Shown piece by piece: positions 23,135 to 23,590 of a stretch of DNA of 34,412 nucleotides (the stretch's first letter is position 1; each line of letters opens with the position of its first letter). This DNA is from Microscillaceae bacterium. Its GTDB lineage: Bacteria > Bacteroidota > Bacteroidia > Cytophagales > Microscillaceae. Location of the stretch: assembly GCA_012031215.1 (NCBI GenBank), contig JAAUUB010000019.1:1-34412 (forward strand). Direction: 5' to 3'. A model generated the notes under the pieces. That model was not told where the DNA came from, did not search any database, and saw only the letters and a program-made list of their open reading frames with translations. The translations under genes were made by a program, and so were the position numbers.

Positions 23135-23590
23135 CTAAAGCCCGGCACTAATCAAAAAGGTCGTGGCAAAGGCAATAATGGCGTACAATTCAGGGAACAC
23201 GGCCAAAATCATTGTGCGTCCAAAGACATCATAGCCCGCCCCAATGCCCGCAATGCCATTGGCGGCTACTTCGCCTTGCTTGACGGCTGAGAACAAACCC
23301 ACAAAACCCAGCGCAAAACCAGCCGCCAGGATGGCAATGCCCTGGGGAAGGGTGATACTTTCGTTTAGCACTCCTTGTGAATTGATGATAAAAAAGCCTG
23401 CGAAGCCATAAAGCCCTTGTGTGCCTGGCAAAGCACTCAGCAACATATAGCTGCCAAAAGCATCTTCTTTCTTTTTTAAAGCCCCAATGGTGGCATTGCC
23501 GCCCATCGAGACCCCAATGGCACTGCCAATGCCCGCCAGCCCTACCATAAGGGCCAGGCCAATATAGGCCAAAATAATTGCTGTTTCCAT
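23135..23590 (-). CDS. ntpK: V-type ATPase/ATP synthase subunit K (proteolipid c ring)
   Basis: Membrane rotor subunit of V/A-type ATPase, 151 residues, four helices (two fused hairpins). Start ATG 23590 ([15 protein letters not shown]). GlyAla-rich helix 1 ([15 protein letters not shown]), then LPGTQGLYG in helix 2, [12 protein letters not shown] after helix 3 and [10 protein letters not shown] in helix 4. Only the second hairpin has the ion-binding Glu (E134). L54, T57, Q58, Y61, Q105 and E134 align with the Na+ ligands of Enterococcus hirae NtpK (L61, T64, Q65, Y68, Q110, E139), so Na+ coupling is predicted. Intact frame. It follows subunit I by 88 bases. Confidence 0.93.

Follow-up and report, generated by a model that had tools for sequence, protein, structure and literature searches.

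Which ion does the rotary ATPase encoded at this locus carry? We analyzed a stretch of 34,412 nucleotides, referred to here as the window, from a Microscillaceae bacterium (contig JAAUUB010000019.1 of assembly GCA_012031215.1). It contains a gene for subunit K, the c-ring subunit of V/A-type ATPases. A preliminary description had assigned to this ring the full Na+ ligand set of NtpK, the corresponding subunit of E. hirae, and had predicted a Na+-coupled enzyme whose gradient a neighboring antiporter could spend. Judged from its residues, Na+ coupling is likely the best reading of the K site, and it is not a new idea. The gene and the codons of the proposed ion site are located as follows:

23135..23590, minus strand: V/A-type ATPase subunit K (c ring), 151 aa, with four transmembrane helices in two hairpins, identified from its translation, Pfam and alignment with NtpK.
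23408..23431, minus strand: first half of the ion site, with codons L54 (23429-23431), T57 (23420-23422), Q58 (23417-23419) and Y61 (23408-23410), from the NtpK alignment and counted by hand.
23276..23278, minus strand: codon of Q105, paired with NtpK Q110 in the alignment; position counted by hand.
23189..23191, minus strand: codon of E134, the ion-carrying carboxylate, paired with NtpK E139 in the alignment; position counted by hand.

The K frame lies on the minus strand with its stop ending at 23135, and frame 1 of the plus strand contains four stops over the same stretch. An earlier ATG in the open frame, at 23752, would give a protein of 205 aa; we set the start at 23590 from the length of the relatives. 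Pfam ATP-synt_C matched two stretches of the protein (85.6 bits against a cut-off of 24, E 2.7e-24), placing two such hairpins in one chain. When solved structures were searched with phmmer, NtpK of E. hirae (2bl2) was the strongest match, at E 8.4e-19, and the other four rows were V-type ATP synthase proteolipids (E 6e-5 to 2.8e-4). A score of this size means that the similarity to NtpK is homology and not chance. The best NCBIfam models were those for V-type ATP synthase subunit K. The protein scored below the curated cut-off of the best of these, NF005124 (112.7 bits against 127), which represents a narrow equivalog group and not the whole family, and below those of the six other models listed.

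We modeled K with AlphaFold2 from an alignment of 47 proteins (46 of 80 relatives, hand-picked for spread by no fixed rule, plus the window protein). Mean pLDDT was 96, with helices at residues 2-40, 42-70, 81-117 and 123-150. The model superposed on 2bl2 with Z 20.6 and 1.7 Å over 149 residues at 36% identity, in agreement with the four-helix duplicated hairpin and single carboxylate per subunit of NtpK. It superposed equally well on the yeast Vo proteolipid chain 6o7t_g (Z 20.6, 1.4 Å, 149 residues). Because proteolipids from yeast, mammals and E. hirae score alike, we rejected the fold as a guide to the ion; the model that the preliminary description had called for supports the kinship with NtpK and cannot settle what the ring carries.

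The alignment of residues was more informative. K residues L54, T57, Q58, Y61, Q105 and E134 pair with NtpK L61, T64, Q65, Y68, Q110 and E139, all six identical, and the sole gap in the alignment with 2bl2 is one of two residues between the hairpins. The description of these residues as aligning without gaps inside each hairpin was thus correct. To call them a full ligand set was an overstatement: according to PMC2359735, NtpK L61 binds Na+ through its backbone carbonyl and Y68 is a non-ligand that steadies the glutamate, and four of the six also occur in the c ring of the Thermus thermophilus V/A-ATPase (6qum), which the title of a paper cited in PMC12018189 describes as an H+ enzyme. That ring, built from a single hairpin, shares L, T, Q and E with the K site, and has L where K has Q58 and F where K has Y61; these four shared residues consequently do not discriminate Na+ from H+. 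The yeast c' ring keeps only the Y and the E. Various H+ ATPases are likewise said in PMC2359735 to retain some Na+ ligands.

What sets K apart from the Thermus ring is Q58 and Y61. PMC2359735 describes the position of NtpK Q65 as polar in predicted Na+ enzymes and aliphatic in predicted H+ enzymes, and K, with Q58, has a polar residue there. The Na+ prediction thus rests mainly on Q58, helped by Y61. With four residues shared by both kinds of ring and the fold undecided, we regard Na+ coupling as likely, in a more qualified form than had been proposed.

We then considered whether these residues are kept among relatives. The best 80 K relatives from named bacterial genomes were retained from a search with six peptide patterns, one of which covers Q105 and one of which ends at E134, so that counts at these residues may be biased; none of the patterns includes L54, T57, Q58 or Y61. 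The combination L-T-Q-Y-Q-E was present in 79 of the 80, and the remaining one had M-T-Q-Y-Q-E. Seven of nine further matches in the phylum had all six residues. The eighth (L107, from a genome of the same class, G311) has H58 and F61 with L, T, Q and E kept, and is possibly an intermediate towards the Thermus site that would be useful for testing ion choice. The ninth (L097, from genome G020) is a partial match in an open frame of 85 residues that covers the second hairpin only.

These comparisons bear on the possibility that the ring in practice carries H+, having a Na+-type site but too low an affinity for Na+, or too little Na+ in the cell. In the absence of Na+, rotary ATPases that depend on it are able to transport H+ (PMC2359735), most of the site recurs in T. 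thermophilus, and the H58/F61 variant exists naturally in the phylum. An H+ ring, however, would not need Q58 and Y61, which all 80 closest relatives keep, and neither H+ ring compared here (T. thermophilus and yeast c') has Q at the Q58 place. We consider an H+ ring unlikely and Na+ the better supported choice.

The gene is rare around its own genome. K matches were found in 6 of 57 genomes of the order, a patchy distribution that counts our genome and the one-hairpin case in G020, and in 6 of 296 genomes sampled from the phylum, again with our own included. The family contributed 14 further genomes, three of them less than 90% complete, and none of the 14 had a match. K, subunit B and a DUF2764 protein occur in the same 5 of the 57 genomes, which fits one machine; K has the one extra, partial match in G020, a genome in which B and DUF2764 had no match.

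The remaining subunit genes of this genome were located as follows:

25470..26072, minus strand: V-ATPase subunit D (central shaft), first gene of a D-I-K cluster (Pfam ATP-synt_D, E 3.2e-33; NF002565, 190.1 bits, just above the curated cut-off of 189).
23679..25473, minus strand: V-ATPase subunit I (stator a subunit), in three frames (25030-25473, 24239-24943 and 23679-24461), from open reading frames and profile matches.
Contig C104 of the same genome, L102 4065-5663, outside the window: subunit A (NF003220, 622 bits, cut-off 470).
Contig C104, L102 5892-6800, minus strand: DUF2764, between subunits E and A.
Contig C85 of the same genome, outside the window: subunit B, alone (NF002555, 684 bits, cut-off 431).

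Genes for A, B, D and I are thus all present, A and B outside the window and I in pieces. With DUF2764 and E, which precede A on C104, and K, which comes last in its minus-strand cluster, the genome has seven subunit genes, E being known only from matches below curated cut-offs. They lie in three places: E-DUF2764-A, B, and D-I-K. The C-terminal piece of I (23679-24461, minus strand) contains the motifs SYIRL and HPMRL, which we take to match the two ion-path arginines of known a subunits.

In relatives the arrangement is compact. B was found in 69 of the 80 loci. In all of these it lies upstream of D, shares its strand and is separated from it by no more than 1.2 kb; the 11 loci in which B was not found begin no farther than about 2.5 kb from K. 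A (>50% identity) was found in 63 loci, always upstream of B, and A-B-D-I-K stand together in the four genomes of the order, besides ours, that have a complete K. From these positions the cluster appears broken into three in our genome, with the breaks inside contigs, whereas relatives keep one cluster. The assembly is a draft of 306 contigs, and misassembly may lie behind the three gene places.

We built trees from matches of at least 400 residues for B (69 rows) and at least 450 for A (63 rows), our own proteins included. B grouped with three genomes of its order with weak support (80/83), and A had no firm neighbor. Both sat on long end branches, 1.0 for A against a median of 0.13 and 0.67 for B against 0.053. 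With B weakly placed, A unplaced and both branches long, the trees did not separate transfer from loss for this V-ATPase.

The scattered genes, the three frames of I and the long branches would all be expected if the V-ATPase of this genome were decaying or unassembled. The C-terminal match of I falls in a single open frame of at least 579 aa in 72 of 80 relatives and in a shorter one in the other 8. By eye, from open reading frames and translations, several genes cut into overlapping frames were seen in the window (1820-3311, 9730-11024, 11091-12436, 14019-16456, 17842-19160, 22084-23036 and 23679-25473), and F1 alpha has an apparent out-of-frame stretch. Since other genes are split alike, we read the split of I as sequencing error and not decay; the cut genes are probably sequencing or assembly errors, which also lengthen branches. 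K itself is unbroken and shares 83% identity with its closest relatives, and A and B pass their curated models by wide scores, as given above. Decay is in our judgment very improbable, and a Na+ enzyme is the preferred reading.

The gene between E and A deserves separate consideration. DUF2764 relatives occur in 56 of the loci L012-L091. Against the Pfam profile of subunit C, vATP-synt_AC39, our DUF2764 protein scored 26.5 bits (E 5.2e-6), below the cut-off of 29. A match at E 0.01 or better was seen in 21 of 45 relatives, the best at 7.3e-11; the copy at L012 had none. When the DUF2764 profile was searched against solved structures, an unrelated protein ranked first and two subunit C sequences came next, all at E 0.36-0.44, so that sequence alone is a weak argument for subunit C.

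We therefore turned to structure and modeled the L012 copy (mean pLDDT 88) from an alignment of 45 of the 56 relatives, again hand-picked for spread by no fixed rule. Foldseek placed V-ATPase chains in its top 8 rows, the best at E 0.037 and none at or below 0.001. In VIA-align the top 20 rows were all V-ATPase chains, with Z 9.6-14.7, 8-15% identity and most of the model covered, and the next row had Z 4.3. All-helical models may reach such Z values by chance, as the tool warns; we find the match credible nonetheless, since all 20 rows come from a single family, span the greater part of the model and outscore the other rows by a wide margin. Two of them, 1r5z and 1v9m, are named as subunit C, and the others were taken as subunit C/d from chain letter and length. 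The predicted DUF2764 fold is thus that of V-ATPase subunit C/d (1r5z, 7uzf_d), although identity is only 8-15%, and this L012 model suggests that DUF2764 is likely subunit C/d.

A profile search for ATP-synt_F in our genome gave no match; 6 of 14 control genomes have one. Bacteroides ihuae, the only control with DUF2764, also had no ATP-synt_F match. The E. hirae enzyme, by contrast, has subunits F and G (PMC3879392).

Taken together, we think it quite probable, from the residues and the gene content, that K forms the rotor ring of an ordinary V/A-type rotary ATPase of Bacteroidota, one that binds and moves Na+. In each K subunit a single Na+ would sit at E134, between the two hairpins; T57, Q58, Q105 and the L54 backbone carbonyl are the predicted ligands, and Y61 would steady E134. 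If the subunits assemble and the site selects Na+, turning of the ring past subunit I would exchange Na+ across the membrane. Through D and DUF2764, the putative C/d-like adaptor, that exchange would be coupled to the hydrolysis or synthesis of ATP by A and B.

What might share a Na+ gradient with this enzyme? The gene next to K is the following:

22084..23036, minus strand: CaCA-type calcium/sodium antiporter in two overlapping frames (22539-23036 and 22084-22539), with Na_Ca_ex in both halves.

The antiporter was correctly placed by the preliminary description downstream of K on the same strand, 98 bases away; in this assembly it is split into two frames. TIGR00367 was the best model for both halves, each of which fell below the whole-protein cut-off. 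We compared both halves by tblastn with the 80 K loci, at least 1 kb of sequence being available beyond K in 70 and at least 3 kb in 56. One locus, L037, had a match near K (E 2.6e-12); it starts about 830 bases past K and is limited to 87 residues in the first half. With one partial match in 80 loci, the suggestion that the antiporter spends the same gradient gains no support from a conserved neighborhood. We rejected the antiporter as a conserved partner of the ATPase, and a functional link to K is speculation. In a scan for regulatory signals, promoter-like sites were about as frequent as expected by chance (5, mean 4.7), and 12 terminator-like sites were counted against 7.8 (sd 3.1).

Elsewhere in the genome the NQRA_N domain of Na+-NQR was matched at 95 bits against a cut-off of 25, which makes Na+-NQR a better candidate partner than the antiporter. 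A membrane pyrophosphatase is also present. The F-type c subunit of this organism reads, by eye, Glu-Gly-Val at its carboxylate, where Na+ F-type rings have Glu-Ser/Thr (PMC2359735). Having no Ser/Thr ligand, the F-type ATPase is probably an H+ enzyme, and the V- and F-type ATPases of this genome are predicted to use different ions.

The Na+ idea for K is sound and has been published before, for this enzyme in a different genus. In 2023 the K subunit of Bacteroides fragilis was aligned with that of E. hirae and found to conserve the Na+-coordinating residues, and Na+-driven ATP synthesis under membrane stress was proposed for its V-type ATPase (PMC10790697). Bacteroidetes V-ATPases are also listed in PMC2359735. 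The B. fragilis system (ptos_002482-88) has the same small gene set with DUF2764, by its published description and not by alignment, and forms one operon, unlike the three gene places here. Its V-type ATPase mutants became nearly undetectable after growth in deoxycholate, and the Bacteroides enzyme is called functionally uncharacterized in that paper (PMC10790697). In the literature searched we found no experiment on the ion use of a Bacteroides-type enzyme.

The Na+ prediction for K therefore adds one more genome to a known pattern, and the possible importance lies in the enzyme around it. On balance we favor the view that Bacteroidota may have a pared-down Na+ V-ATPase in which DUF2764 is the rotor adaptor C/d joining shaft D to the Na+ ring, with no recognizable F, and which in this genome would be made from three unlinked gene groups. 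The scattered gene order would be a natural test of whether the pieces of such an ATPase can come from separate places. The account of the B. fragilis operon in PMC10790697 leaves its DUF2764 gene unexplained; as a likely C/d subunit, DUF2764 would provide the operon with a rotor adaptor and with a model that can be tested.
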